Origin: Pseudeuparius sepicola
Taxonomy: Eukaryota > Arthropoda > Insecta > Coleoptera > Anthribidae
NCBI GenBank assembly: GCA_963920635.1
Contig: OY987298.1
Location: 64,563,949 to 64,627,948 of the forward strand
DNA: 64,000 bases
Direction: 5' to 3'
Position 1 is the first letter of the stretch. Each line of letters starts with the position of its first letter. The notes under the pieces were generated by a model. The model made no database searches, had not been told where the DNA came from, and was given only the letters and a program-made list of their open reading frames with translations. The translations under genes and the position numbers were made by a program. Of this stretch, positions 20,752 to 58,571 are shown piece after piece.

Positions 20752-22250
20752 CAGGGTGAGTTTTTTTCGATGACCACTATGGGGATCTCGGAAAATAGCA
20801 GAGCTAGAACAAAGGTTAAATGAAAGAATTGCAGTTTTGGATTTTTAAAAAAGTTCATGGCTCACTAGATATTTTGAAAAGAGTGATTTTTTGCTATTTC
20901 ATCAGATCTCTGTAGCTCCCTTATTTCTGATTATACAGAAAAACTGTAGAGACAAAAATTGTAGATAATTTTGGGCTTTATTAAGATAATCTAATCCAAT
21001 TTTTTATGTTGTTTGTGATTTTTGAGATATGACATAAACTTGTGTTTTTTTAAATGTAAATCATAGTTGGCCTTATCAAATCGGCCATTTTTTGAGCTTT
21101 CCAAAGATATAAAACTCAAATTCAAATCATTGTTATTTTAAAAGGTCACTTTGTAAAATAAAGAAGGTGTTCAAACAATCCACTATTATTATTTATGCAA
21201 ATACTGCATATTTTTAAAACTGAATTTGTCCCCTTTCTTAGAGAGCACCTGTCAATACTGGCAATTGCTTCTAAAACAGCTGCTCTTAATTCAGCATTAA
21301 TTGTCTCATACTTTATTTTGTACTGTTCCCCACAAAAAGAAATCCAAAACAGACAAATCGGAAGATCGGGGCTGCCAGGAAATAGGTCTAGTTCTCCCTA
21401 TCCAACTATTTGGATATAGCTGATCTAGGTAATTTCTTACGGGCAAATAATTATATGTGGTGGAGCTCCATCATGATAATTTTTGTTTTATTTTGTTACA
21501 TTTTGTTACCAGCTAAAAATAAAATATTTGAAAGTTTGAAGTATGTCTTATTATAAAATAGAACATAATTATGAAAATATTCCATGGCGGACTATGTGAA
21601 AATTTAAAAAAAAAATCAGAAAATTAGCCATAGCTCTTTTATTTTTTATAATAACTATGCCGAGTCTAAGATCAAAAATATACTAAAATTACTCAAGAAC
21701 TATAAAAAATTCGAATATTTTCTAAAATTTATTTGTGGCGCAAATATAGTGTGTCCCACTTAAGGACTGACCACCAATGTAAAATTTTTATTTAGCCATA
21801 GCTCTTTTATTTTTTATAATAACTATGCCTAGTAGTATATCTTTGGAAAGCTCAAAAAATGGCCGATTTAATAAGGCCACAGCCAACTATGATTTACATT
21901 TAAAAAAACACAAGTTTATGTCATATCTCAAAAATCACAACAACAAAAAAATTGGATTTTTTTATATTATTAAGTCCAAAATTATCTACAATTTTTGTCT
22001 CTACAGCTTTTCTGTATAATCAGAAATAACTGAGCTACAGAGATCTGATGAAATAGCAAAAATCACTCTTTTAAAAATATCTAGTATATTGAGTATATAT
22101 AGTATATTGAGAGCCATGAACTTTTTTAAAAATCCAAGAGGGGCATTAGATTGAGCATTCAAAACTGCAATTGTTTCCCCATTTAACCTTTGTTCTAGCT
22201 CTGCTATTTTCCGAGATCACCATAGTGGGCATCGAAAAAAACTCACCCTG
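20752..22250 (-). mobile_element. Mariner-type element with ~360-415 bp TIRs
   Basis: The ends read CAGGGTGAGTTTTTTTCGAT and its inverted copy, with TA on both sides. The TIRs extend inward to about 21112 and from about 21835 and are largely complementary. The interior holds a short transposase remnant on the minus strand. Within the right half, a segment around 21665-21790 (TCTAAGATCAAAAATATACT and onward, including a partial CAGTGTGTCCCACTT end) recurs just outside the element at 22262-22392. This indicates a local duplication or insertion from the neighbouring MITE family. Confidence 0.82.
21306..21415 (-). pseudogene. Mariner-type transposase scrap
   Basis: About 36 codons with WIGRTRPISWQPRSSDLSVL followed by DFFLWGTVQNKV and a stop. 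This is the block around the third catalytic Asp of the same transposase type as at 4422-5167 (WIGR...PPRSPDLTPLDFFLWGT). It confirms that the 20752-22250 element is a relative. The rest of the gene is deleted. Confidence 0.75.
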
Positions 22251-22807
22251 TATATAATTTTAGGGTCTAAGATCAAAAATATACTAAAATTACTCAAGAA
22301 CTAGAAAACATTCGAATATTTTCTAAAATTTTTTTGTGGCGCAAATACAGTGTGTCCCACTGAAGGACTGACCACCCCTGTAAAATTTTTCTTTATAGCT
22401 CGATTTTCATAAACTTTTTTTTGTTGGATAGAGGTTCAAAAATGGCATCAAACGCATAATTCAGGTGCCTCGTGCGTTAAAGTCATGGCCCACTGAGACG
22501 GTGTTTTAGTGCTGAAATTTCGAGAAGTACTATTAGGTTTTTTTTTGGAGAAAAATTAATGCCAGACTCTTATTCAGCATTGTTCGAAACCCAAACGTAC
22601 CAATTTGCATTGCGGTAGCTCTACAGGGAATTTCAAAATTTTTATTGCCACACTTAAGGGCTGACCACCCCCGTAAATTTTTTATTAATAGCTCGATTTT
22701 CATAAACTTTTTTGTTGGGTAGAGCTTTAAAAATGGCATTAAATGCATAATTCAGGTGCCTCGTGCGTTAAATTCATGGCCCACTGAGACGGTGTTTTAG
22801 TGCTGAA

Positions 22808-23031
22808 AGTTAAATTAACGATTTCGAAAAATACGTTTTTAAAACAATTTATTTTGACAGTTACAACAGGGCAGCGTCTACTGCTACAAGACAAGATAGA
22901 ACTGATTAACAATAGAGCAAAGCTTAAATATATAGGGATACAAAATGCAACTTAGCCTACACGTGCCCGCGCACTCAGCACTTTGTCTGCACTTTAACAC
23001 AATCAGGACCATTGTTCATAGCGACGTAACT
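22808..23031 (-). repeat. Errantivirus 3' LTR
   Basis: 224 bp, apparently identical to 30404-30627. It begins AGTTAAATTAACG and ends GCGACGTAACT on the plus strand, with the inverted AGTT...AACT ends of gypsy/17.6-type elements. TGAA precedes it. Confidence 0.95.
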
Positions 23032-23042
23032 CCTCCCTCCTT
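23032..23042 (-). other. Errantivirus polypurine tract
   Basis: On the minus strand AAGGAGGGAGG directly abuts the 3' LTR, the position and composition expected for the plus-strand primer. Confidence 0.8.
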
Positions 23043-23195
23043 AAGACGAAAATATCAACCTGGAGGGTTGTTTTTCCGTTTCTTTCTCCACCATTTCAAT
23101 TTTGACTTGTCCTCTTCTTTTTTTGAATTTTCTTTGATATATTTTCCATCCAATATATCCAGTAAGTAGTAGAAAAATAATAATGATGCTTGTAG

Positions 23196-24773
23196 CTAAT
23201 CCATAGCTGAGGGTATATGTATCTTCTGAATATCGGGGACTTGCAAAAGTGTAGACTTTTCCTGAAGCTTGTGAATATTTTCTAAGTTAATAGTTTGGAG
23301 TTGAAGTGGCTTCGCTCGTAGGTAGTTAAAGTTGAGGTCATTTATTCCAATTTCTAGTAAATTAAACGGTTTTCCATTTATTTCTTCATTTTTATTAATA
23401 AATTGGAAATCTTTGACTTTGATTTCACAATTTCCTGGCAAATGTATCAAATTAGGTTCGTTGATAATTTTGATTTCTTCTTTCTTTTGACAATTTGTTG
23501 AAATTTTGAGTGTTTCTTCGGCAGGAATAGCAATAATGTATTCACTGTTGATTGCTTGGATTATTGGGTTTATTATGTTAATTGGTAAACCATGACAAAA
23601 CTTTCCTTCGGCTTCCTTTATCATGGAAATTATGCATTCGTTTGAGTGAGGCGTGAGTGAATTTTGACAAATATACATATTTTCAACCTTGGGACATTCC
23701 TCGTTCTGGAACTGTTGTTGGTTCGAGCCAAGTATAAGGTAAGGGTGACTCGGGATAACAATTGAATTTTTAATTGGGATTGGGAACAATCGATATGTTT
23801 GAAATTTTTCGTGTGAAAATATTGGAAAATGAATTGCAAATATAATTTTATCATTATTAAAGTTTACTTGTATTCCAGCGAGTTCATAATAAGAAATTAC
23901 ATTTTTTAATCTTAAAATGGATTCAATAGAGTATAAATTTTTCAAATATTTAATCATGGAACGTAATTGCAATGCAGAAATTATTGAACCATGTAAAGTA
24001 TTAAGTTTTGCGAACATTATCGCGTTTTCCAAATTATCGAGAAAAGTTATGAGATTTTGACAATTAAGAATAGTTTGATCCAAAATGTTTTGTGCTTGTA
24101 AAGATGCAGAAATATCGTTAATGGTTTTATTGATATTAACCTCAAAATTTTCTAATTTTTCTTTTATCAAATTTTGATTTGATTGCAAAATTGTTATAGT
24201 AGAATTATAATTATCAATAAGTTGCTTTGTTAATGAGATTTGTAGAGAAACTTCCTTCGTAAAGGATTGCTGATTATTTTGAAGTGCGTAAATCGCTTTA
24301 TCATACTTTTCACCATCGTCAGAATCTAGTGTGCCAAAAAGCCATTTTGAAGCTTTACCTACGATATTTATTAAACCTCTCTTACTTCTATTATGGGGAG
24401 TAATATTATCTAATTTTCTTTCTACTTCCATTATTAAATATTCTACATGTTGTAGTAGGTTATATAAAACATTAGAATAGGAGTTAGTAGCGATTTCTGA
24501 TATATTATTTTTATCTAAAGATAATTTCATGATGCTATAAAATTTACGCATATTATTTAATTGATTAATTATAGGATTAATTTTAATATAGTGAATAAAA
24601 GTGTGTTTTGTTTCAGTAATTTTTGTATCTCCTAACTGGAAAGGTAGTAAAGGAGTTTTTATAGGTGTAAAAGTCATTTCAGTCGTCGTTGTCAGTGTCA
24701 AAACCGGAGTCAAGATTAATAACGTTGTCGTCAGGGACAGCATAACTGCAGGAAGGAATTGTATCAATGTCAA
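23196..24773 (-). CDS. env: Errantivirus Env (baculovirus F-like), anchor out of frame
   Basis: 525 codons. The N-terminus is a hydrophobic signal-like segment (residues ~5-27). A furin-type site RSKR at residues 129-132 is followed by GLINIVGKASKWLFGTLD, the conserved start of the membrane-fusing subunit shared by insect errantivirus Env and baculovirus F proteins. Several N-x-S/T sites are present. The start overlaps the end of pol by 95 bp, as in gypsy-type elements where env is made from a spliced mRNA. The frame stops at 23196, before any transmembrane helix. A hydrophobic Ile/Leu-rich stretch with a basic tail is encoded just downstream (about 23070-23200) in a different frame. So an indel has separated the ectodomain from its anchor, or the sequence has an error here. 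Confidence 0.85.
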   Translation of the reverse strand: MTLIQFLPAVMLSLTTTLLILTPVLTLTTTTEMTFTPIKTPLLPFQLGDTKITETKHTFIHYIKINPIINQLNNMRKFYSIMKLSLDKNNISEIATNSYSNVLYNLLQHVEYLIMEVERKLDNITPHNRSKRGLINIVGKASKWLFGTLDSDDGEKYDKAIYALQNNQQSFTKEVSLQISLTKQLIDNYNSTITILQSNQNLIKEKLENFEVNINKTINDISASLQAQNILDQTILNCQNLITFLDNLENAIMFAKLNTLHGSIISALQLRSMIKYLKNLYSIESILRLKNVISYYELAGIQVNFNNDKIIFAIHFPIFSHEKFQTYRLFPIPIKNSIVIPSHPYLILGSNQQQFQNEECPKVENMYICQNSLTPHSNECIISMIKEAEGKFCHGLPINIINPIIQAINSEYIIAIPAEETLKISTNCQKKEEIKIINEPNLIHLPGNCEIKVKDFQFINKNEEINGKPFNLLEIGINDLNFNYLRAKPLQLQTINLENIHKLQEKSTLLQVPDIQKIHIPSAMD

Positions 24774-27700
24774 TATCCGGTAAACAAGGGTTTAAATTAG
24801 ATTTTGGGCGTTTTAGTTGCGATTTGTGAATAATTTTGTCATCGAAAGTTTTGACTTTTGTCCCTAAATCTTCCTTAATTTCGATTTTCGTATGTTTTGG
24901 TTTGGTTTTATCCCTTAATGACGCTTTATTTTTCTGGAATTGAACAGTACAAGGCTCGTAATTTTGTGGTTCTTCCCTATCCTTGTTGTGGCTTGTATTT
25001 TGTTTATGTTTTTCGCTTAGTGAAACCTCATGAATTTTATCAAAAATTATTTTTAATTTGTTTTTTCGCTCATCTATGTACTGGTTTAGTATTATTTCAT
25101 CTGTGATGTCGAATGGGTCGAGGGCACTGGTGTGACCGTTAATAATATCAAAAGGCCTTTGTTTTGTCGTACTATGAACAGAATTATTGTAACCTAATAT
25201 AGCATACTGCATTAATTGTTTTATTTCCGAGTTCGGATGAGTAAGTTTTAGTACGCGTATACTATCAAGTAGCGTATTATGTAATCTTTCTATATTACTA
25301 TTACTGTTCGAGTTACCGGGTGTCGTAAAATGTAGATTTGCATTATGAAGTTTACAAAAATCAGTAAGAAGACTTGTTTTGAACTCAGTGCCGTTATCAC
25401 ATGTTATTGATTTTGGTATTCCAAAGTGTGATACAAAATTAAAAATTCCATCCATTACATCAGTTGAATTACATGATTCTAAAGGATAAGTTTGAGCGTA
25501 TTTTGAAAAAACATCAATAATTGTCAAATACTTTCTTCCTAAAATTTGAAAAGGGTCCATATGTATGGATTCAAAAGGTTGTGACGGAGTTATAGTTAAG
25601 GCAAATTTTATTTTAGGTGGGTTCCTATCATATTTAGCTTTACAATATTCGCATCTATTAATGTATTCCGTTATGTCATTTTTCATATTGGGCCAATAAT
25701 ATAATTTTTTCAAAGCTAACAGAGTTTCGTTTATGCCACGATGACATGTCTTTGTTTCATGATGGTATCGTAACAGTTCTTGTTGACGATCCTTTTCAGT
25801 TACATCGGTTAAGAAAATGTTAGAGAAATTAAGTTTATACGCATGATTTTTGAAAGTTTTTGCTAGTAAATTGCAGATTCTCGGTTTCAAATCAATTTCA
25901 CTCTTTTGAATATAAATACTGTAGAGTAGTTTCGGATTTATGTATTCCTTGAAAAATTTAATTAATTCATAAGCATAATTTTTCAGTGTTAGGTAGACAG
26001 TTAATCTAATTTTATTGGGAAAAGGACATGTCTTTATAACATGATATCTTCCAGAGTCTTTTAAAATAAATATAATTTGATTAGTATAAGTGTTTAGACA
26101 ATTTTCAGTTATTGGAATGGTTAAAATTGGATCTTCTATTGCAGAATGAACAGTTTCAATCTCGTTTCTATTTTCAATAAGTTCTTCAATCTCTCCGGTA
26201 GGTTTAATTAGAATATCGGATATTATATTTATTTTTGGTTTTGAACGATTTTCATTTACTTCACGATTTTCTTCGGGGAATTCGGCCTCTAAATATTCTC
26301 TGATTTCATCATTAGTTATAGGGTTATTCAAAAATCTATGAATTTCTTCATCAATATCACCGGGATTTCCTAAAATTGACTGATTCTCGATAGCGTTAAG
26401 GTCATTGTTATTTCGACTTTTCCTAACCTTTTCTTTTTGTTCTTTTAAAAATTCGTCTAACTTTAATTCGAATTCTAAATCCGGGTTACTTAATTGAAAA
26501 TTATTTTCAGGAATATATTTTACTGTTATCTTGTTTCCGTCAACGGTACGTTCTTTATAAAATTTTATTGGTTCTTCGAAATTAATTGTTCGTTGATCTT
26601 TGTTTAGAGAAATTTTTATATTTTTTGGTACACCATATATAGGTTCTGGTGGACTTTCATTTGTAGAGAAAATTGGGTTTACTTCGGAAACATCATTATC
26701 TATGTAGCAAATGACTATTTCCGCTTGCACCGATTTAAAAATAAAATTAATCATTCCTTTCATTATATTCCAATCTAATTGATCAAGACCGCATCCTATC
26801 CTTGGCATAGCTAAATATTTTATGTAATTTTTGATCACATGACTTCTTAGGTTTTTAAGACAAGTAAATATGTTATAGTAAGTCGGTTTCTCATAAAAGT
26901 GTTTCTTAGTAATTAAATAATATATAAAACGTTTTCTAGTATTTATAACTGTTAATATTCCTACTTCGCCTACTTGTTTGTTTTGTTTCTTTAAATTAGC
27001 AACGTTGTCATACCTTTCTTTAAATTCGGCTGCAATACCAGCCCTCATTTTAAAATCGGACGACACACAATGTGCCAGTGAGTACCTCTCGGGCATCTCA
27101 AATAAATTTCTTTTTATTTCAACAACATTACCATTATTTTCATTGTTATCATTATTTTCTATAATTTTCCTAAATTCATAATATTCTTTATCAATATCAT
27201 AAAATAAGATGTTATTGACATTATCGTCATCAAATTGAATACGAGATAATGAATCCGCATTAGTATTTATTTTTCCTTTTTTGTATTTAATTTCATAGTC
27301 GTATTCTTCTAGTTTCAACCTCCAGCGCACTAATCTGGAGTTTGGTTCCTTTAAATTAAATAACCATTGTAATGGTTTGTGATCAGTAATTATTGTAAAC
27401 TTTCTTCCAAATAAATACGGTCTAAAGTAATTTGTAAAATAGACGATAGCTAATAGTTCTTTTTCTATGGTGCTATAATTTTGTTCAGCGGGACTTAATG
27501 TCCTTGATCCATAAGCAATTGGTAAATCACTACCTATTTTTCCTTGACTTAGAACTGCACCAATAGCGATGTTTGAAGCATCTGTTGTTAAATTAAAAGG
27601 TTTTGTAAAATCTGGGTATTGAAGTATAGGGTCATTACATAAAATATTCTTGCAAATTTCAAAAGTCTTTAAAAATTCCTCAGTATGTTCTATTTTTTCA

Positions 27701-28650
27701 CCTTTCTTTAAACATTGCGTAAATGGCTTAGTTATTTTTTCAAAATTTTTAATAAATCTTGTATAGTAGCCTAAAAGACCTAGGAAAGATTTAATTTCTT
27801 TAGTAGTTTTTGGTATAGGAAAGCGTTTTATTGCCTCTATCTTTTTTGGGTTCGGTTTAACACCATCCGCCGTTACCACGTGACCTAAAAATTCAACTTC
27901 CTTTCGTAAAAATTCCGATTTGTCTAACTGAATTTTAAACCTAGCTTTTCTCAGTGTAGTAAATAATAACTTTAAATTAGAAATATGTTCTGTAAGATTT
28001 GTTGAGAATACTATTATATCATCCATATAAAATAAACAAATTTTTTCTTGTAACTCCCGAAGTAGTACATTATCCATAACTCTCTGAAAACTTGCCGGGG
28101 CATTTTTTAAACCAAAGGACATTCGAACATATTCATAGTGACCATTTTCAACAGTAAAAGCAGTTTTTTCTATTGAGTTCTCATTCATTTCAATTTGATG
28201 AAAACCTGACGCGAGGTCAATGGTCGAAAAATATTGACAACGGCCTAATTTGTCTAAAATGTCATTAATATTCGGTAAGGGATACCTATCATCAATAGTT
28301 TTTTCATTTACTTTACGATAATCTACCACAATTCTCCACTTTTGGACTCCGCTAGCATCTAACTTTTTCGGGACAATCCAAATTGGGCTACTCCATGGGC
28401 TTTGACTATGACGAATAATACCATCGTCTAACATTTTTGAAATTTGTTTTTGAACCTCATTTTTATGAATAAAAGGATACCTATAAGATTTCGTATAAAT
28501 TAGGACTTCGTCAGTAGTCTTTATTTCATGTTTTATCTGATTAGTAAAAGTTAATTTGGAACCATCATTATGAAAAATATCTCGAAATTCATTACAAAGT
28601 TTAAATAAAGCGTTCTTTTCCTCTTCGTTCAAATGATCCATCCTAATCAT
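24679..28650 (-). CDS. pol: Errantivirus Pol: RT, RNase H, macro domain, integrase
   Basis: 1323 codons, uninterrupted. Reverse transcriptase spans residues ~50-300 with YMDD at 208-211. RNase H covers ~350-470 with acidic residues in TTDASN (D357), the IEKELL block and ITDHKPL (D423). Residues ~508-650 form a macro domain of the TARG1/OARD1 type, which errantivirus Pol does not normally have as far as I know. An acidic, low-complexity linker of about 150 residues follows. Integrase begins with an HHCC finger (H963/H964, H970, C1000, C1003), then D1032, D1085 and E1121 with exact D-35-E spacing. The C-terminus overlaps env. The start ATG overlaps the stop of the protease frame (ATGA), although in relatives protease and RT are one frame, so a one-base lesion or frameshifting is likely there. 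Confidence 0.93.
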   Translation of the reverse strand: MIRMDHLNEEEKNALFKLCNEFRDIFHNDGSKLTFTNQIKHEIKTTDEVLIYTKSYRYPFIHKNEVQKQISKMLDDGIIRHSQSPWSSPIWIVPKKLDASGVQKWRIVVDYRKVNEKTIDDRYPLPNINDILDKLGRCQYFSTIDLASGFHQIEMNENSIEKTAFTVENGHYEYVRMSFGLKNAPASFQRVMDNVLLRELQEKICLFYMDDIIVFSTNLTEHISNLKLLFTTLRKARFKIQLDKSEFLRKEVEFLGHVVTADGVKPNPKKIEAIKRFPIPKTTKEIKSFLGLLGYYTRFIKNFEKITKPFTQCLKKGEKIEHTEEFLKTFEICKNILCNDPILQYPDFTKPFNLTTDASNIAIGAVLSQGKIGSDLPIAYGSRTLSPAEQNYSTIEKELLAIVYFTNYFRPYLFGRKFTIITDHKPLQWLFNLKEPNSRLVRWRLKLEEYDYEIKYKKGKINTNADSLSRIQFDDDNVNNILFYDIDKEYYEFRKIIENNDNNENNGNVVEIKRNLFEMPERYSLAHCVSSDFKMRAGIAAEFKERYDNVANLKKQNKQVGEVGILTVINTRKRFIYYLITKKHFYEKPTYYNIFTCLKNLRSHVIKNYIKYLAMPRIGCGLDQLDWNIMKGMINFIFKSVQAEIVICYIDNDVSEVNPIFSTNESPPEPIYGVPKNIKISLNKDQRTINFEEPIKFYKERTVDGNKITVKYIPENNFQLSNPDLEFELKLDEFLKEQKEKVRKSRNNNDLNAIENQSILGNPGDIDEEIHRFLNNPITNDEIREYLEAEFPEENREVNENRSKPKINIISDILIKPTGEIEELIENRNEIETVHSAIEDPILTIPITENCLNTYTNQIIFILKDSGRYHVIKTCPFPNKIRLTVYLTLKNYAYELIKFFKEYINPKLLYSIYIQKSEIDLKPRICNLLAKTFKNHAYKLNFSNIFLTDVTEKDRQQELLRYHHETKTCHRGINETLLALKKLYYWPNMKNDITEYINRCEYCKAKYDRNPPKIKFALTITPSQPFESIHMDPFQILGRKYLTIIDVFSKYAQTYPLESCNSTDVMDGIFNFVSHFGIPKSITCDNGTEFKTSLLTDFCKLHNANLHFTTPGNSNSNSNIERLHNTLLDSIRVLKLTHPNSEIKQLMQYAILGYNNSVHSTTKQRPFDIINGHTSALDPFDITDEIILNQYIDERKNKLKIIFDKIHEVSLSEKHKQNTSHNKDREEPQNYEPCTVQFQKNKASLRDKTKPKHTKIEIKEDLGTKVKTFDDKIIHKSQLKRPKSNLNPCLPDIDIDTIPSCSYAVPDDNVINLDSGFDTDNDD
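26701..27129 (-). other. TARG1/OARD1-like macro domain inside Pol
   Basis: Residues ~508-650 of the Pol frame. Recognised blocks in order are SLAHCVSSDFKMRAGIA (ADP-ribose pocket entry, with the 'GAGIA'-type loop as RAGIA), GEVGIL, IYYLITKKHFYEKPTY, and AMPRIGCGLDQLDW. In human TARG1 (OARD1) the catalytic residues are Lys84, in the LITKK block, and Asp125, in the GCGLD block, 41 positions apart. Here the corresponding K582 and D623 are also 41 apart. The known activity of the family is removal of ADP-ribose from Glu/Asp and from some nucleic-acid adducts, and hydrolysis of O-acetyl-ADP-ribose. The domain is in frame with RT and IN and has no stops. Its role in the element is inference: reversing host ADP-ribosylation of viral proteins or nucleic acid would fit. 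Confidence 0.88.
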
Positions 28651-29345
28651 GTTCCTAACATATTGTCAGAATTATTTTTCTCAGTGTATGTGGAATTTTC
28701 AATATTAAATAAATAAAAGTCATCTTTGCGTTTGTTAGAAAATTCTTGCACCTGCATGGGCTCTACAAAAGTTAATTGTATTGTCTTATCTGTATTATTA
28801 TGAACCTCGGTATAAGCAAAGCCTTTGTTTGCTGTCGTTAATGTTTCAAGAAAATAAAGTCCGTTTATATTACTTTCTGGGACAATGATATCTTTATTAA
28901 ATTTATTCACTGGTATTTTAGCTGAAAGCGCCTCGTGTGCGTTAACTGAAATGGAGTATTGTTTATCATCCGGTCGCCTATAATAAAAAGGAATTGTTGT
29001 TACATGGTTGACAAGAATATCATTTTCGAGGTCAATATGGAATTTTAATTTCTTTAAATCGCGTAAGCCTATAATGCCATCAAAATAAGGGTGGAAATCA
29101 AATAAAATTATCGGAATGACCATATCAGTGTTTAGTTCTTCTGGAGCCGGAATATTGGCTCTGAATTTAATTTCTGTTTCGCCTAAACTCGTTTTGACTT
29201 GCGTGGGACAAGTGTAAATACAATTTGGAAAATATTTTTCTACGATAGAAGGTCTTAAAATTGAATGAAAACAACCTGTATCGATAAGCAATTTCATTTT
29301 GGGATTTTTAATTTGAATATAAGCTAAACTGTTATGTTGTTCCAC
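28647..29345 (-). CDS. Errantivirus protease region
   Basis: An open frame of about 232 codons between gag and RT. It carries the retropepsin active-site motif KLLIDTGCFHSIL and, further on, a GIIGLRDL block that matches the second conserved strand of Gypsy proteases. The frame is open a little upstream of 29345 as well, so the shown start is nominal; in relatives this region is made as part of Gag-Pro-Pol. It ends in a TGA that overlaps the ATG of the RT frame (ATGA at 28647-28650). The RT frame is shifted relative to it; usual errantivirus Pol is continuous here, which suggests a one-base indel. Confidence 0.8.
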   Translation of the reverse strand: MEQHNSLAYIQIKNPKMKLLIDTGCFHSILRPSIVEKYFPNCIYTCPTQVKTSLGETEIKFRANIPAPEELNTDMVIPIILFDFHPYFDGIIGLRDLKKLKFHIDLENDILVNHVTTIPFYYRRPDDKQYSISVNAHEALSAKIPVNKFNKDIIVPESNINGLYFLETLTTANKGFAYTEVHNNTDKTIQLTFVEPMQVQEFSNKRKDDFYLFNIENSTYTEKNNSDNMLGT

Positions 29346-29527
29346 ATAAATTTCGACTATTTCTTTTTCCTGGTTTATTTCTTCCGTTTGGGAGGATGAC
29401 TCACCAATGGAAAATTTCCGGAGTTAATTTTTTGAGTTTGAATTTTGTTTTGGGGTTCTTAAACATAATTCATCATATTGCCTAACGTAAATTTCTTTAG
29501 CGGCTTGGGTTAAGTATACATCTGAAT

Positions 29528-30052
29528 TCACTTTTGGCTCAGATTACTCCTCATAACCTGAAGTCGTTTTGCGAAATCTAAAGGAGATTCATTTTTAAAT
29601 GGCCTAGCCGTAAATAAGTCCTGCTCTAGGCACTCCAAATTGCGACGATCACCAAAGCATTGATTTAGTGCGTCCTTAATTTTCTGCCACGTATTTAACT
29701 CATTGCGGCAACCTATCAATAATTCAGCGCGTCCAGTGAGTTTCATCTGAACCGCTCTGACTAAGTAATTTTTTAAAAATTCATAATTTATGTCATTATA
29801 AGTTTCAAAGAGGTAATCACATGACGAGATAAATTTCGGCAAGGAAGTTGCATTGCCGTCAAAATTAGAAATTGTTTCTACATACATCTTAAGCATTGGT
29901 AAGTTAAGTTTTTCGTTTGCCATTGCGATTATTTTATTTTTACTTTCTTCTTTAATAACTTGGTTAACGTCAGATGAACTACTTGGTTCGTCAAAACTTA
30001 AACTTGATGAAAATAAACTTGTAATATCCTCAATATCAACGTCACTCATCAA
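29528..30052 (-). CDS. gag: Errantivirus Gag, truncated
   Basis: 174 codons. The first 55 residues are acidic and Ser-rich. The rest resembles the capsid N-terminal half of gypsy-type Gag (LPMLKMYVETISNFDGN, a helix-rich region with LTGRAELLIG and FGDRRNLECLEQDLFTARPF). Errantivirus Gag is usually two or more times longer, and the stop at 29528 is followed by about 180 bp before the protease frame. The C-terminal half of capsid and any nucleic-acid-binding tail are therefore absent or out of frame. With identical LTRs this is either a recent deletion or a defect acquired during replication. Confidence 0.75.
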   Translation of the reverse strand: MMSDVDIEDITSLFSSSLSFDEPSSSSDVNQVIKEESKNKIIAMANEKLNLPMLKMYVETISNFDGNATSLPKFISSCDYLFETYNDINYEFLKNYLVRAVQMKLTGRAELLIGCRNELNTWQKIKDALNQCFGDRRNLECLEQDLFTARPFKNESPLDFAKRLQVMRSNLSQK

Positions 30053-30387
30053 ATAAATATATCAAAATCTTCAAAAATATCGTAAAAATCTTCAAAAAAT
30101 ATCGTAAAAAATAAGGAATAAAATAGGAATCCAAAGGAACACTTGACTCTTACCAAAAGCTGGTTCTGGTCGCCGGCCAAAGTCCTAAGGTTAGCAATAT
30201 CTTGTCTGTAGCTCCTGCCGTGTTGGCTGCCAGGGGTTGATCCAGGGGCTGCTGCTGCGATGCCTCGAAGATCAGGTTGTTGGACGACGTCTTCAAGATA
30301 AAAATCTTTCAGCTTCTCGCGACGCGGTAGAATGCGGTGCCGATACCGTGGGGATTCCAAACTACGGTCGCGGAAACTGGACGCACG

Positions 30388-30404
30388 TCCTACCGACTGC
30401 GCCA
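30388..30404 (-). other. Errantivirus primer-binding site, tRNA-Ser
   Basis: The plus strand reads TCCTACCGACTGCGCCA, which equals the 3' end of insect tRNA-Ser including CCA. The complementary PBS starts at the last base of the 5' LTR, the one-base overlap known from errantiviruses such as 17.6 and 297, which use tRNA-Ser. Confidence 0.88.
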
Positions 30405-30627
30405 GTTAAATTAACGATTTCGAAAAATACGTTTTTAAAACAATTTATTTTGACAGTTACAACAGGGCAGCGTCTACTGCTACAAGACAAGATAGAACTG
30501 ATTAACAATAGAGCAAAGCTTAAATATATAGGGATACAAAATGCAACTTAGCCTACACGTGCCCGCGCACTCAGCACTTTGTCTGCACTTTAACACAATC
30601 AGGACCATTGTTCATAGCGACGTAACT
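30404..30627 (-). repeat. Errantivirus 5' LTR
   Basis: 224 bp, the apparently identical partner of 22808-23031, followed by the TGAA target duplication. As the 5' LTR it would hold the promoter; I see no element that fixes the start site. Confidence 0.95.
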
Positions 30628-30965
30628 TGAAATTTCGAGAAGTACAATTACGGATTTTTTAGAGGAAAATTAATGCCGGTATATTGTTCAGCGTTGTTGG
30701 AAACCCAAACGTACCAATTTGCATTACCATAGCTCCACAGGGTGTTCCAAAAATTAAAAGGAAAAGTAAGGCGGGATTCTTATATGCAGTGAGAGGTTCC
30801 AAACAAAAACGTACTAATTTGTAATTAATTTTCTTAATTTCTGGTAAGTTGGTCACTAAAATATTCATGACGAACTCATATTCTTTCAAAAATTTATTAG
30901 CGAACAAATCTTTTATTTAATTTAATATCATCAAATACATGAATAAACAACACAACATAACAAAC

Positions 30966-31008
30966 TCAAATTTCAATCATTTCAATTAGTCCTCCATTTT
31001 CTAATGCA
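30966..31008 (-). pseudogene. C-terminal codons of a mariner-type transposase
   Basis: The minus strand encodes ALENGGLIEMIEI and stop. This matches the 'ENGGL.E' ending of the transposase at 4422. It is the only transposase coding left in the 22348-31559 element. Confidence 0.55.
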
Positions 31009-31719
31009 AATTGGTACGTTTGGGTTTCCAACAACGTTGAATAAAAATCTAGCACTAATTTTTCTCTAAAAAAAATCCCTAATAGTACTTCTCGAAATTT
31101 CAGCACTAAAACTTCGTCTCAGTGGGCAATGAATGCAACGCACGAGGCACCTGAATTATGCATTTGATGTCATTATTGAAGCTCTATCCAACAAAAAAAA
31201 AGTTTATGAAATCCTGCTAAAAATAAAAATTTTACAGGGGTGGTCACTAATTAAATGGGACACTAAAAATTTTGAAACACCCTGTAGAGCTATGGTAATG
31301 CAAATTGGTACGTTTGGGTTTCGAACAACGCTGAATAAGAATACGGCATTGATTTTCCTCTAAAAAAAATCCCTAATAGTACTTTTAGAAATTTCAGCAC
31401 TAAAACACCGTCGCAGTGGGCCTTGAATTTAAGGCAAGAGGTACCTGAATTATAAATTTAATGCCATTTTTGAAGCTCTATCCAAAAAAAAAGTTTATGG
31501 AAATCGAGCCATAAATAAAAATTTTACAGGGGTGGTCAGTCCTTAAGTGGGACACACTGTATATCCATTTAATTTTTTAATTGGGTTTTTCGTCACCAAA
31601 TTGATTAAAGACAATTTTTTCAAGTTGCCTAGAAAATTCATAAATTCTTAACAGAAACTCTAAAAGTGTAACTCAAAAAATAACTTCTACAAATTCGATT
31701 CCAATGTAACACGTACATA

Positions 31720-32149: not shown

Positions 32150-33350
32150 ATATATATATGATCACAGCACATCTTTTTGTTGTAAATTGTAGAAAGTTCC
32201 CTTCATTACAAACAACTTTTGTATGAAACTTTTTTCCGTAGCTCCCCAAATTCTCGTGATAAGGTGATGTTATAGGGCATGATATATTTATGTGGTCCAT
32301 CCTGTGTTTCTTGCTATTTTTTTATACAGAAAATATCATTTGATTTCTTTTTTGTATTATTGTCACGGTATTATTGTCAAATTATATCAGAAAAAAAAAC
32401 AACATAAACAAAACAATTTTCTCATTTTCATTATTTAGATTCTTTATGTTGCTCTAGTGAAATATCCTGCTGCTATAATCACCCAAAACATTGTCACTGC
32501 TTTATTAGCCGCTAAAAATTATAAAATGTACCTACATTTCTGTGTAGATCTTTTACCTTATTACATGCACACAACTGAGATTAACGTAGTACTAACGTAA
32601 TTATAGAACTAATTGCTCAAAAAATGTTTTTTGTGTGCCCAACGATTCTACATAGAATTATACAAACACAAGTCGATTGCACAATATATTTAGGTCCTAC
32701 AGTTACAGTCAGTGACTATAAAATTTCTATATTCACTGCTACATTAAAAGTGGTCAGGTAGATTTGGCTATGATCACAGCACATTTTTTTGTTGTGGATA
32801 ATAATGACAAATGACAAGTTCCGACAGTAGTCGGTCGCCCTCGGGCTCTGTCCGGGCATTGTGGGTGGTCGAGACGGCCGTGTTTATTTATATTCGATGC
32901 GTATTTATAATCGCCAATTTGAATGATTTATGCGGCCAAACAGAGCGAGTTTTTCGATTCTAAATTATTCATAACTCATAAATTCCTATTTACACGCGGC
33001 TAGGACTGTATTTAGATTGTTAACATAAACCTGTCGAATTGTTAAAATCGCATTAATTGCCCCTCCCGGTCGTTAGTTATCGTTGGGCACGTTTGCGTTG
33101 CCGCCGGTCGCCGCGGAGCGGACGCATGATGGACGGCCGACGTTTTCTGGTTGTTTTGAATGGTCCTTTTTTCAATTTTAAGCTGGAAAAAGTCGATCTA
33201 AATCTTTTCAAATCGGCCAACGGTCTATTTTATGACGTAAGTATAGGCAGATTGTACATTGTACTGGAGTAAACAACGCACTTTTGCATTGTTCCGAAAA
33301 ACGGGGAAACAATGTTACATAGTTTGTTATCGTTATCATTATCATCTTCA
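32150..33350. other. No recognisable gene; GC-rich patch at 32820-33130
   Basis: Mostly AT-rich. A block of about 45 bp starting TATGATCACAGCACAT at 32157 recurs near 32770. A GC-richer patch at 32820-33130 has no credible reading frame. Nothing else was recognised. Confidence 0.4.
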
Positions 33351-33725
33351 TCGTCACCGTCACCGTCAATGTCACTGTCAATGTCACTGTCAATGTCACT
33401 GTCAATGTCACTGTCAATGTCACTGTCAATGTCAATGTCAATGTCACTGTCAATGTCACTGTCAATGTCACTGTCAATGTCACTGTCGATGTCACTGTCA
33501 ATGTCACTGTCAATGTCATGTCACTGTCAATGTCAATGCCAATGTCACTGTCAATGTCACGGTCAATGTCACTGTCAATGCCACTGTTAATGTCACTGTC
33601 AATATCACTGCCACTGTCTATGTCACTAACTGCCACTGTCAATGTTAGTGTCAGTGTCAATGTCAGTGTCAATGTCACTGTCAGTGTCAGTGTCAATGTC
33701 ATCACTGTCAATGTCACTGTCACTT
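33351..33725. repeat. Minisatellite, 12-bp unit TGTCACTGTCAA
   Basis: A tandem array of TGTCAA and TGTCAC hexamers, mostly alternating to give a 12-bp unit. It degrades on the right into TGTCAGTGTCAATG variants and then a GGTACTGGTACT-like stretch to about 33770. Because the unit is a multiple of three, all six frames stay open, which explains the long low-complexity open frames here; they are not genes. Confidence 0.93.
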
Positions 33726-33945
33726 TACTGATGCTGGTACTGGTACTAGCGTTGGCACTGGTACTGGTATCTTTTTCGTTACTGTTACTCTTTCAGTTGT
33801 GATTTCCTCCACAGGGAACATTCACTCAGACCTTAGGCATCCCATAGGATCTCGCTCGGACGAGGCCCTTGCGGTGTTATCGGGACCTAGATGACGTTGT
33901 CTTGTCGAATGTTCCTGCAGGCCTCATTAGTTAGAGATGCCAGTT

Positions 33946-42639: not shown

Positions 42640-45600
42640 CTACTCATCACCTGACTGGTCAAGATCGTCATCGGTCTCTCGATCGTCAGAGTAATTTGGT
42701 TTGAGATCCTTTATATGAAAGTTACCCAGATTATTTCCGGCTTTATCTTTTAAATTATATACTAAAGGTGAAATAACTTTGTGCACAATGCATGGAATGT
42801 ATTTGGGAGCCAATTTTGCCGAATATGCATTAGCAGCATTAGATAGAGTGAAATTTTTTTTCCAAACATAATCTCCTACATGAAAAGACATAGGGCGCTT
42901 CCTTGTAATGTCTAGAGTTTTTCTCGTGAGCACGTCTGAGCTTAAACCTGACATCAGAAAATACCTTAGGTAACTCTTGCAAGTCATCTACCAGTTGGTT
43001 TTTTGCTTCTATTACAGGAATGTTATTGGCATTTTCTGCGATTTTACCATAATAGTCACCTGAAAGTGGGATATTTCTACCGAAAACTAAAAATGCTGGT
43101 GAGTAGTCAGTTATTTCGTGTTTAGCTAAGCGGATAGCTTGTGCAATCTGATGTATATTTGTATCCCAGGTTTTATGATTCTCATGAATGTAAGATTTTA
43201 AAGCTGTCACTATGACACGATTTACCCTTTCAGTATGATTTATTTGCGGATGGTAACGAGCATTATAAAATATTTTTTGCACCCTATATTTCTCCATGAG
43301 AGTCTTGAACTCTTTGCTAATAAATTGGCTTCCATTGTCACAACAAAATATCTGGGGAACTCCATACAGTGAAAAGACTATAAATTTTATAATTAAACTA
43401 CAAGTGGCTTTAAATAAAGGTTGTATAAGAACAAATTTAGAAAACCAATCGACTATTACCAGTAAATATTGATTACCATTTTTAGATCGTGGGTAAGGAC
43501 CCAATAAATCGGCTGATATCATTTGAAAAGGGAAGTTTATATTTCGATAGGATCCCATAAGACCTGGTTGTGAAACATTTGGGCTCTTATTGGCTCCACA
43601 AATCGGACACCTTTTGACATATCTAACAACATCTCTACGCATGTTAGGCCAATAGTAAAGTTCCCTAATTCGTGCTAAAGTTTTTGACACTCCAAAATGT
43701 CCGGCAGTAGTGCTGTCATGATATATTGAAAAAATTTGTTTTCTATTTGTAGTTGGTACTACCATTTTCCATTCTGAAATATTAGTAATGGATGATATTC
43801 TATCAAAAACATGTTTATACAACAAATTATTCTTTACCATGAGCGTAGGATAGTCATCTGGACTTGTCAGAACTTTTTGATAAAGAGAAGAATACCATTT
43901 ACATGGCTTAAATTCTGCAACATCCAGGACTGATAATTCCGTTAAAAGAGGTGTTGTTCTGGAAAGAGCATCCGCAACTACCATTGTAGAACCCTTCCGA
44001 TGCTGTATTTCAAAGTCAAATTGAGATAGTTTGAGTGCCCACCGAGCTAATCTACCGGCTGGATTAGATAAATTCATGAACCAGACAAGAGAAGCGTGGT
44101 CTGTCTCGACTACAAAATGAGTACCTTCTACATAACCTCTAAATTTCTCAATCCCGAATAAAACACCCAAACATTCCTTCTCGGTAACTGAATATTTACG
44201 TTGACATTTATTAAGAGTTTTACTCGCAAAAGCAATGGGATGTTCAGCTCCGTCGATTTTTTGATAAAGAACGGCACCCAGTCCAGTATCACTTGCATCT
44301 GTCTGGATTATGAATTGTTTCTCAAAACATGGTGTTGCCAAAACTGGACTATTAGTCAAAGAGTATTTAATTTTATTAAAAGCTTCTTCAGCCTCAGAAG
44401 TCCACTTAATAGTTTGTTGACAATTGCCTCTACTTTTTCTGGACTAGTTCTTAGACCTTCCCTATCAACAATAAACCCTAAATATTTTAGTGAAGACCGA
44501 CAAAATTCACATTTGTCTAAATTGATAGTTAAATTAGCTTGTTTTAGTCTATTATATATTTTATGCAAAATCTCAATGTGTTTTTCAAAAGTTGGTGTTG
44601 CTACAATAATATCGTCGAGATAAACAAATGCAAAAGGTTCCAAACTAGGGTCAATGACTCTATCCATTAATCTCTGCATAGTCTCTGGTGAATTAGAAAA
44701 TCCAAATGGCATAACCCTGAATTGAAAGCTTCCTCGACCCTGTACAGCAAAAGCAGTCAATTCTTGATTCTTGGTCTAATGGAATCTGATAAAAAGCCTT
44801 TCTTAAGTCAATGGACGTAATAAATCTAGCATCGCGGAGTTTATTTAGAATGTTATCTATCAGAGGAAGTGGATAAGTATCTTTAACTGTTACTTGATTT
44901 AATCTGCGACCATCGAAACACACTCTATATTCTCCTGATTTTTTTGTGACCAGCCACAAAGGACTGGACCAGGGCGATTGTGAGGACTCAATAATTTTAA
45001 ATTTAAGCATCTCATCGATTTCCTTATTAAGGTGGGTCTGCATAGCGGGTGATAGAGGATACTGACGAACTTTAAACGGTTTAGCATTTCCAGTGTCTAT
45101 ATTGTGGGATATTAATGACGTTAAGCCCAAGGTATCTTTAGTGGGAATTGATTTAAACAAGTCGACATGGTCAAGAACAGTTTGTTGTGTCTGTGACAGA
45201 TCGTGCACCGAGTGTATTTTACATGAAACGTTCGTAGACTCAATAAAAGCTACATGTGACGAAGTTTGAGAAGGAATGGTATATGAAAAGTTTCCATAAT
45301 CAACATATAATCTAAATAATTTTAAAAAATCCATTCCTAAAATAAAATCGTGTTGTATCTGTGGTATAATTAACACTTTCATTGTCTTAGTGTGATTTCT
45401 CAACATTAAAGGAAGATAACAATAACCATAAATTTTTGAAGAGGTTCCATCTGGATATAAAACAATGATTGACGGATCCGGATAAATTTTAATTTTATAT
45501 TTTTCTAATAAAGGTAACGCGGATGGACCAAGAATTGTAGAATTTGAGCCTCCGTCTACGAGTGCTAAAATTGTCTCATGAAAAATGGACACAGGTAGGT

Positions 45601-45874
45601 AACATCTATTGTCATCAGGTCTCTTAACAAAAATAGGACTTACGAAAACAAATTTTTGACCAACAAACTTAGCCACTACATCAAGCCATTCATTCCATTC
45701 AGTACGAGAAAAGCGGACAGAAGTAGAGGAGTTTAGGGAGGAGTTGGGAGAGATTAGTTTCTTGGTTGGCGTTCCCTGTTTGGAGTTGTTGTTCTGGTGG
45801 TTGGTGTTCCTCCAGTGACAGTTATTTGACGGCCACTGGTGCCCTGCACGTTTTTTGAACGGCAATTGAAACAA
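42640..45874 (-). pseudogene. pol: Gypsy Pol: protease, RT, RNase H, integrase; frameshifted
   Basis: Four frame pieces cover a whole pol. 45874-44693 has the protease (ALVDGGSNSTIL, with G in place of the usual T of DTG) and the RT fingers. 44760-44356 holds the RT core with YLDD in VYLDDIIVA. 44359-42839 has RNase H (TDASDTGLGAVL, TDHASL, VADALSR) and integrase: an HHCC finger ending CPICG, the first Asp in ISADLLGP, the second in CCDNGSQF and Glu in NHTERVNR. 42987-42640 holds the integrase C-terminus. The breaks are near 44730, 44358 and 42900. The start overlaps gag in another frame, so the original element used frameshifting at gag-pol. No intact product is possible. Confidence 0.88.
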
Positions 45875-47061
45875 GTCGGTCTAGTAACATCTTTTTTTCC
45901 ACAACCATAACAAAATCTCGTCCTTGGAGCACTACATTGTGGATAAGTGTGACCCGCCTTGTTACAATTCCAGCAAACAAGCGACACAGCATTTACATGA
46001 ACCCGTCTGGGCGAATCGTGAATAGCTAAACAACTCAAATCAGGTTCCAACAATCCAGTATTGCGAGTAGGTGGGGCCTTATAACGTTCCGACCACGAAT
46101 ATGATTCCTCCAAGCGCTTGCATTGAGTGGTAAGCTCAGAAATTGTCATTACGTCCAATAAAGCGAGATGAGCATGATATTGCGGTAATAAGTTACGCCT
46201 GATCTGATTAACAATAGTAACTTCATCAGGGGGACTACTTAATCGTTTAAAAAGAGCTTCGACTGAAGAAATAAAAATTGTTACTCGTTCCCGAGCGCCT
46301 TGTGTGCGATTCTTTATTTCATTAAGCAAGTCTTGATCGTAATGGTAAGGTAAGAAGTTTTCCTTTAATTTCTGACATAAATCACGCCAATCACGAACTC
46401 GGTCTTTATTATTTACATACCATGTCCACGCATGCCCTTGGAAAAGATCACAAGCGGCAGAGAACAAATCAGCCTCTGACGCACCCCTAGCTTGGCGTAA
46501 AAGTTCTACTCTCTCTAAAAATGCGATAAAAGATTCCCTTTCGGTACCAGAGTAGTGTACATTCCATTTACAAACATTAACAAGAGGTTTTGACAAACTT
46601 GCACCCCATTGTTATCTCACAGGAGTGGAGGCTCTATCAGCGGGAGGTTCAAAGTCTAAAAATTTTAATGCAAATTCCCCCTCAAGGTCTAATAACTTAG
46701 TTTGAGCATCTTTCAGTTGTTGTTGTTCAACCTCATCTTCTGGATTCATACGAGAAACTCTGTGTGACAGATGTTGTAACCTAGTCTCCAATCTGCGGCA
46801 TTCATAGTCGCCCTTGATTCCAGAAAAAGCTTTAATTTTACTCGAAATATCATTAAAAGAATGTAAATAGTGCTTAAGATCATCAGAAAATTTCAAAGGA
46901 TTAGCAATAGTCAAAAAACTGCGATTTGATCGCTCCTGCTGAAGGATTCCTCTTAATCGTGTACGTCTAACCTCAACAGTACCTGAAAAGTCTATTCCCC
47001 TAATTCGTAGTTCGTAAGTTAGCTCGCCATCTTTTAAATGTTTTGGCTCCATATTAGACAT
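45754..47061 (-). pseudogene. gag: Gypsy Gag, broken near 46600
   Basis: Two frame pieces: 47061-46612 (149 codons, a helical, charged matrix-like region) and 46596-45754 (280 codons). The second has a capsid-like region (ESFIAFLERVELLRQARG, then a helix with HAWTWYVNNKDRVRDW) and a nucleic-acid-binding end with CWNCNKAGHTYPQC (CCHC) and CYGCGKKDVTRPTCFNC (second Cys cluster). A stop and frame change at 46597-46615 separate them, with little coding lost. The two-cluster arrangement is unlike the other two LTR elements in the window. Confidence 0.82.
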
Positions 47062-54650: not shown

Positions 54651-55502
54651 ATGGCCCCACCGATAAACCCCGCCGAAGGAAGCGCCCGGCCCGAAGTTCA
54701 CAAGGTTGGTGTCCGCATACCGGCATTCATTCAGTCAGAACCGGAGCTATGGTTCGGAATGTTGGAGCGAAGTTTTGACTGCTCTAACGTAACGACAGAA
54801 GCGACGAAGTTCGGGTACGTAAGCAGCGCTTTAGAACCACGGTACGCGATAGAGGTTAAAGACATCATCCTCAACCCTCCACCACTGCAACCGTACACCG
54901 CGTTAAAGACCCAATTGCTAAAGCGGCTTAGCGCGTCGCAGGAGGTAAAAACTCGGCGTTTGTTGGAGCATGAGGAAATAGGCGACCGAAACCCATAGCA
55001 ATTCCTGCGGCATCTCAAAGATCTAGGCGAGGGGATGTCAGACAGCGTCATCCGCACCTTATGGACCAGTCGCTTACCTGCTTCCACACAAGCGATTCTG
55101 GCAACTCAAAAAGGTGAGCCATTGGAGAAAGTAGCCGAACTAGCCGACGCCATCCAGGAGACAATGCGTAACACGCCACAGGTAGCTGGCGTCCAGACGC
55201 CACAAATAGCCGCCGCTCAAGCCCTAACGGACATCACGCAGGTTCTCAATGCACAGGTAACCCAATTACAACGAGAAATTGCAGGATTAAGGCAGGAGGT
55301 TAGTGCTGTGCAAGCCAATCGAGCAGAAACCAGCAGGTCGCGACGCGAACGCCCGCGTTCTCGGGCCAGAGCCCCGTCCCGCGGCCGATCCACACAAAGA
55401 CCCGAGGGAAGTTCCTGTTGGTACCACTGGAAGTTCGGAGCCGCAGCGCAGAGGTGCCAGACGCCGTGCTCCTACTCGGAAAACACGCAGGCCAGGCACT
55501 AA
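54651..55502 (+). pseudogene. gag: CsRn1-type Gag with one in-frame stop
   Basis: I chose the ATG at 54651 (context AACAATGG; product starts MAPPINPAEGS) over an earlier in-frame ATG at 54561. The capsid region is clear: VRIPAFIQSEPELWFGMLE, then KFGYVSSALEPRYAIEVKDI and LKTQLLKRLSASQE. A TAG at 54996-54998 interrupts it; the frame continues directly afterwards (QFLRHLKDLGEGMSD), so this is a single nonsense change. A basic Arg/Ser-rich region precedes [18 protein letters not shown], the variant Cys-His-Cys-Cys motif of CsRn1 elements. The end overlaps pol by 85 bp in the -1 frame, consistent with -1 frameshifting for Gag-Pol. Confidence 0.9.
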
Positions 55503-58500: not shown

Positions 58501-58571
58501 CCAGCAAAGCCACAAGTCGCCCGAAAAGAACGGTGCGGTTTGCTGAACGCTATCAAGCAGGCTTCACATAG
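55418..58571 (+). pseudogene. pol: CsRn1-type Pol, two frame breaks in integrase part
   Basis: The first piece (55418-57430, 670 codons) contains protease ([14 protein letters not shown]55), reverse transcriptase ([32 protein letters not shown] near residue 350) and RNase H ([27 protein letters not shown]). Near 57370 the frame changes by one base. The second piece (to ~57750) has the integrase zinc finger (VHSLSHPGIKATTKL...CNECQRSK) and the first catalytic Asp (VHLDLIIM). A second change near 57745 leads to the last piece (to 58571) with VTTDHGRQF, NGMVERLHRQ and a GPY-type C-terminal module (YDGPYQVI). No env follows. The lesions are single-base, so with nearly identical LTRs sequencing error is also possible. 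Confidence 0.92.

Follow-up and report, generated by a model that had tools for sequence, protein, structure and literature searches.

A TARG1-type macro domain within the Pol of a beetle errantivirus

The 64,000-nucleotide stretch of Pseudeuparius sepicola contig OY987298.1 analysed here (called the window) contains an errantivirus whose pol open reading frame (ORF) encodes, besides reverse transcriptase (RT), RNase H and integrase, a macro domain of the TARG1/OARD1 type. The domain has the predicted fold and the lysine/aspartate dyad of TARG1, is under purifying selection and occurs in many genomic copies, which fall into several families differing in the position of the domain within Pol. 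We favour, with a probability of roughly 0.6, the reading that this segment is a captured ADP-ribosyl hydrolase domain of the TARG1 class residing inside Pol, its activity being predicted.

Identity, copies and selection

The macro domain comprises 143 residues and forms an unbroken stretch of the pol ORF, which is open over its 1323 codons as the original prediction, made from the sequence of the window, had stated. Among the checks proposed with that prediction, the profile search and the structure prediction identified the domain as expected, and its presence and dyad in other copies (below) also favoured the claim. Pfam Macro (PF01661) matched the Pol with an E-value of 1.4e-7 and 31.9 bits (cut-off 22), and a phmmer search against the PDB returned human TARG1 (4j5r) with an E-value of 3.3e-34, the next family following at 4.7e-5; the nearest solved structure is TARG1 and not another macro class. 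The predicted fold superposes on TARG1 with 0.8 A across 140 residues at 44 percent identity (model residues 1-143 onto TARG1 13-152). In this structural alignment K75 and D116 of the domain, which are K582 and D623 of Pol (macro residue 1 is Pol residue 508) and had been proposed as the catalytic pair, fall on TARG1 residues 84 and 125. A passage of PMC7050489 gives the acidic residue of TARG1 as Glu125, whereas the PDB chain shows Asp at this position.

A search of the 769 Mb assembly with the macro domain yielded at least 151 matches (150 listed; 150 of 888 candidates scored). Delimited by percent identity to the window domain, the matches listed comprise family A, to which the window element belongs (46 matches at 91-100 percent, window counted), and two sister families with together 104 matches, namely family B (94 at 63-69 percent) and family C (10 at 54-56 percent). 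The copies read were 41 of the 46 listed for A (the best-scoring ones, window included), 30 of the 94 listed for B and 10 of 10 for C, in addition to seven loci of a family D and one of 111 listed matches of a family E described below. The dyad K75/D116 is complete in 79 of the 81 A, B and C copies and the domain is stop-free in 76 of them. At 26 of the 28 positions conserved in a 54-row TARG1 alignment, the majority residue is the same in families A, B and C; relative to TARG1, the family A domain has a three-residue insertion near residues 60-62.

The ratios of nonsynonymous to synonymous differences (pN/pS, Nei-Gojobori, copies with stops in the respective stretch omitted) within families were 0.28 for A (39 copies), 0.25 for B (27) and 0.18 for C (10). 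Between A and B, the macro domain had a ratio of 0.225. RNase H gave 0.124 (from 13 copies of A and 14 of B) and the integrase-side linker 0.172, while the first linker reached 0.236 and the spacer preceding the macro domain 0.384. Based on these values, the macro domain is under purifying selection and less constrained than RNase H. Its A-B pS of 0.78 exceeds the 0.46-0.67 of its neighbours (usable copies vary by stretch), which would fit a mosaic history.

An assembly chimera of a host gene and a retroelement has virtually no probability: it is ruled out by the many copies, with the 46 family A places lying on many contigs, the same arrangement recurring in B and independent Pols from databases carrying the domain. 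A true but accidental acquisition, in which a TARG1-like gene of the host was transduced by chance and has been carried along as copies expanded recently, has more in its favour, since retroelements transduce host sequence and TARG1-like host genes are present in beetles and in the window's genome. Yet frame and residues have been kept in three families despite the high synonymous divergence between A and B, and macro domains recur in other Pols, and we regard a mere passenger as very unlikely.

Position within Pol and number of captures

The domain had been predicted to sit at the boundary of RNase H and integrase. RNase H does lie upstream and integrase downstream, but the domain is not directly at the integrase boundary: about 300 residues separate it from the H2C2 zinc domain, which begins at Pol residue 953. 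Most copies of families A and B likewise carry the macro module between RNase H and integrase, and the 900 nt preceding the macro domain contain RNase H motifs at 34/40 A loci and 23/30 B loci. In family C, the module is of similar make-up (spacer, macro, linker with LDKFLKQQKEKVR) and is located upstream of RT, which was found downstream of it in 8 of 10 loci. Family D is a more distant gypsy family, and one of its loci (L099) encodes gag-protease-macro-RT in a single open frame. The linker of family C retrieved family E (111 matches at 56-57 percent among the matches listed), which, judged by the one copy read, serves as an empty-site relative.

In some copies of family A, RT is missing. At six of the 40 loci, the sequence preceding the macro domain is of protease type and contains no RNase H motif. 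One locus (L012) has a frame of at least 981 codons with the order protease-macro-integrase, and neither RT nor RNase H was matched in the two pieces of it that were scanned. In a motif search, protease-type motifs were detected in the 900 nt ahead of the macro domain in 16 of 40 A loci (e.g. L019/L012, L020, L023, L038; some frames still open), ten of which have RNase H motifs as well; the proximity of protease and macro domain means that most of RT is probably missing there. Such loci look like a trans-mobilised deletion family.

Macro domains were also found in database Pols. Six have the order RNase H-macro-integrase (P0006, P0139-P0143), and two carry the macro domain after integrase (P0145, P0150), as does a fragment of the same kind (P0015). 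Both dyad residues are kept in all nine of these sequences, while the loop preceding the aspartate is eroded in P0139, P0141 and P0142. In P0159 the macro domain lies ahead of RT, and in P0152 and P0153, which may be retroelement proteins, a Pfam scan detected an aspartyl protease joined to it. That separate element lineages (A/B/C, D, six plus two database Pols) carry the domain in Pol counts for a captured hydrolase. The recurrent placement next to integrase and the erosion of the glycine-rich loop in, for example, P0141 and P0142 could alternatively point to a reader and not an eraser, which would recognise ADP-ribose on modified chromatin or proteins, anchor Pol or the integration complex there and so steer integration. 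A pure reader has no need for the dyad, which is retained in 79/81 genomic copies and in 6/6 RNase H-integrase Pols, and we consider this function unlikely.

In a tree including families A-D and a host gene, A, B, C, D, P0150, the three repeats of a host-type frame (L094) and four beetle genes formed one group (support 96/97), and the six RNase H-macro-integrase Pols a separate one (99/93); the host proteins closest to the macro domain are from beetles. A direct descent of the window macro domain from other retroelement macro domains was suggested by its place near database Pols in the first trees, where it had no firm support, and was abandoned when the group with the beetle genes emerged. 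Approximately unbiased (AU) tests excluded neither A/B/C as sister to the six Pols (p 0.547) nor A/B/C together with D (p 0.642), and so do not separate these alternatives for the immediate source of the A/B/C domain. A single capture for A-D, the six Pols, P0015, P0145 and P0150 was rejected in a 63-row tree from which the P0152 group was left out (AU p 0.011). The groups compared in the AU tests were named after the trees had been seen, which makes the tests weaker. In the RT tree the window, family C and P0139-P0142 grouped together (96/94) to the exclusion of D, P0145 and P0150. These trees make at least two captures likely, though they give no firm count.

The linker of families C and E at the RNase H-integrase site, before H2C2, has a predicted fold that superposes on macro domains and is devoid of the catalytic dyad; one of five models was confident and the Foldseek TM-scores were at most 0.50. 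Sequence homology between this linker and macro domains was undetected by hhalign (probabilities 0.2-1.4 percent, no excess over shuffles), and likewise between the linkers of A/B and those of C/E. The predicted fold is the only support for a kinship with macro domains. Family C has a catalytic-type macro domain besides its linker. We tentatively propose, at slightly less than even odds, that Ty3/gypsy Pols recurrently include macro domains: TARG1 would have entered Pol repeatedly, at sites of three kinds; in at least some errantiviruses, the linker between RNase H and integrase would descend from an ancient macro domain whose active site has been lost; and families such as C would thus combine an active macro domain with a dead one in the same Pol. 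If true, ADP-ribosylation would be a long-standing front between insects and retroelements, and, should the linker result stand, a segment of Pol conserved in both C and E would gain an origin. The dyad-less linker could also be viewed as the end state of a captured fold serving as a structural module among Pol domains, with catalysis incidental, and the interchangeable positions of the domain within Pol are in line with a scaffold or spacer. Purifying selection, however, covers the dyad and the conserved TARG1 positions, and family C retains its second, catalytic-type domain next to the linker; we regard a purely structural role as quite improbable.

Several observations weigh against a captured, active hydrolase. 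The window copy has Arg at domain position 29, beside the GIA loop, where 39 of 41 family A copies have Ser and where Gly is found in nearly all of the host rows shown, and its enzymatic activity is for this reason uncertain. The family A copies that were read are the best-scoring ones, which biases the sample towards intact dyads. The amino acids of the macro domain diverge faster than those of most neighbours, with an A-B pN of 0.175, whereas RNase H has 0.068, the integrase-side linker 0.095 and the first linker 0.109; the sole exception is the spacer preceding the macro domain, which is higher (0.257). Family E, an abundant sister of C, has no macro domain between protease and RT in the one copy read by eye, which indicates that the domain is not essential to this element group. 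Finally, one clade comprising the window domain, P0015, P0145, P0150 and the six Pols was not rejected in a 58-row tree (AU p 0.249).

Outside the Pols with RT and integrase, TARG1-like macro domains were observed in various contexts. P0152-P0154, P0156 and P0157, which are 772-840 residues long and encoded on contigs of 38-410 kb, combine an aspartyl protease with such a domain. The host-type open frame L094 (G000:C1:131516937-131517755) contains three of them in tandem, with the lysine in all three and GCGLD in the last only. P0147, P0148 and P0149 are proteins of the DNA ligase III type that contain a TARG1-type macro domain (P0148 from precomputed domains), which in P0147 and P0149 is located between the ligase core and the LIG3 BRCT domain; P0149 additionally has zf-PARP. 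Their architecture suggests a coupling of DNA-end de-ADP-ribosylation to ligation. Two sawfly genes (P0137, P0138) encode two TARG1-type macro domains per protein together with weak degenerate repeats. Scanning viral contigs with the window macro domain or with the element's RT gave no relative, and with the macro alignment five contigs (L001-L005).

Proposed role and known parallels

According to passages of PMC7050489 and PMC8385414, human TARG1 releases ADP-ribose both from proteins and from the phosphorylated ends of RNA and DNA. Being translated as part of Pol, the captured macro domain would be packaged alongside RT and integrase, and the element's protease might release it or it might stay held. 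An active domain would strip host-added ADP-ribose from the element's own material, with genomic RNA and cDNA ends as the more likely and Gag/Pol proteins as the less likely substrate, and in either case would shield reverse transcription or integration against an ADP-ribosylation response of the host. Membership in Pol is constant while the site varies, which suggests that the domain has to reach the particle or the integration complex. Looking beyond the conserved dyad, the most likely role would be to protect the element's RNA, its cDNA ends or proteins of the particle against ADP-ribosylation by the host. The roles suggested in the original prediction, a counter to restriction by host ADP-ribosylation or an editing of ADP-ribosylated DNA or RNA during replication, are conjectures. 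An LTR (long terminal repeat) element would then possess an ADP-ribose eraser within its replication polyprotein. A single genome offers natural comparisons (macro-bearing families, a sister family without the domain in the copy read, varied positions and many copies), with which one can test whether insects use ADP-ribosylation of retroelement RNA, cDNA or protein as a defence.

The window domain resembles TARG1/OARD1/C6orf130 (ALC1-like class) in predicted fold, sequence identity and the K84/D125 dyad; the members compared are stand-alone proteins, whereas it forms an internal part of a retroelement Pol. In lentiviruses, the dUTPase is placed between RNase H and integrase, and its fold and chemistry differ from those of a macro domain. 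As a captured accessory enzyme in Pol, the dUTPase of some retroviruses offers the nearest logic to a Pol-borne macro domain. It is described within pol of non-primate lentiviruses and, in some ERV3, downstream of integrase (passages of PMC4299795), the latter site matching that of the macro domain in P0145, P0150 and P0015 (a fragment). In fish, epsilon-like endogenous retroviruses (ERVs) with macro-domain ORFs are briefly noted in PMC4977317, which cites Basta et al. 2009. As far as this short description goes, they too are retroelement-borne, there as an additional ORF of a vertebrate retrovirus.

Macro domains of RNA viruses (alphavirus, coronavirus, rubella, insect virga-like viruses, VP8 of Kadipiro virus) share the fold but do not belong to reverse-transcribing elements, and the alphavirus, coronavirus and rubella rows align with the window domain at 8-11 percent identity only. 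The model of the reovirus protein Kadipiro virus VP8 (BFVD A0A8E0KJF2) has 41 percent identity to the window domain and a TM-score of 0.94, and several insect virga-like and flavi-like proteins bear such a fold as well. The DarG antitoxin macrodomain is bacterial and is presented in a passage of PMC7050489 as having no acidic partner. No description of a macro domain in a Ty3/gypsy Pol was found in the literature, judged by titles and abstract openings and with subscription papers and preprints aside. The original claim of an undescribed arrangement needs narrowing, as macro domains carried by retroelements had already been noted in the fish epsilon-like ERVs.

The element in the window

The coordinates of the element and its parts are given in Table 1. 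It is assigned to the errantiviruses (Metaviridae) by its Ty3/gypsy order of RT, RNase H and integrase, its baculovirus-F-like env, and LTR ends AGT...ACT combined with a 4-bp target-site duplication, both of which are typical for errantiviruses. The two LTRs are identical (224/224 nt), as had been predicted, and TGAA is present on both flanks.

Table 1. Features of the errantivirus in window coordinates.
Feature	Position	Strand	Details
Errantivirus, whole element	22808-30627	minus	7820 bp
5' LTR (AGTTAC...TTTAACT)	30404..30627	minus	
3' LTR	22808..23031	minus	
Target-site duplication TGAA, one flank	30628..30631	no strand	
Target-site duplication TGAA, opposite flank	22804..22807	no strand	
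pol ORF, RT-RNase H-macro-linker-integrase	24679..28650	minus	1323 codons, open
Reverse transcriptase RVT_1	27877..28371	minus	PF00078 E 5.2e-38, piece residues 94-258
RNase H	27301..27612	minus	PF17917 E 1.1e-40, piece residues 347-450
TARG1/OARD1-type macro domain	26701..27129	minus	Pol residues 508-650; K582, D623
Errantivirus linker, macro to integrase, begins ETVHSA	25786..26157	minus	
Integrase: H2C2 zinc domain and rve core	25309..25794	minus	PF17921 E 1.1e-14, PF00665 E 2e-9
env, baculovirus F-like	23196..24773	minus	PF12259 E 7.4e-16
Protease-containing frame, not pol's frame	28647..29423	minus	motif LLIDTGCFHS, by eye
gag frame fragment	29528..30061	minus	PF03732 E 0.0023, weak, under cut-off

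In the window copy pol and env are open, while gag and protease are in frames other than that of pol; a Pfam scan of the protease-containing frame gave no protease match. Since stop-to-stop frames of 1581 or 1582 codons span the macro domain in some other copies, the window copy is not fully coding. Diverged repeats flank the element (21664-22811 and 30655-31555) and have one unit in common at 83 percent; they are perhaps the repeat into which the element inserted. The window holds two more Ty3/gypsy elements (42839-46596 and 55418-58571), in which no macro match was obtained among the ORFs scanned; in the former, only 87 residues lie between RNase H and H2C2. A tandem array with a period of 12 bp is located at 33297-33731.
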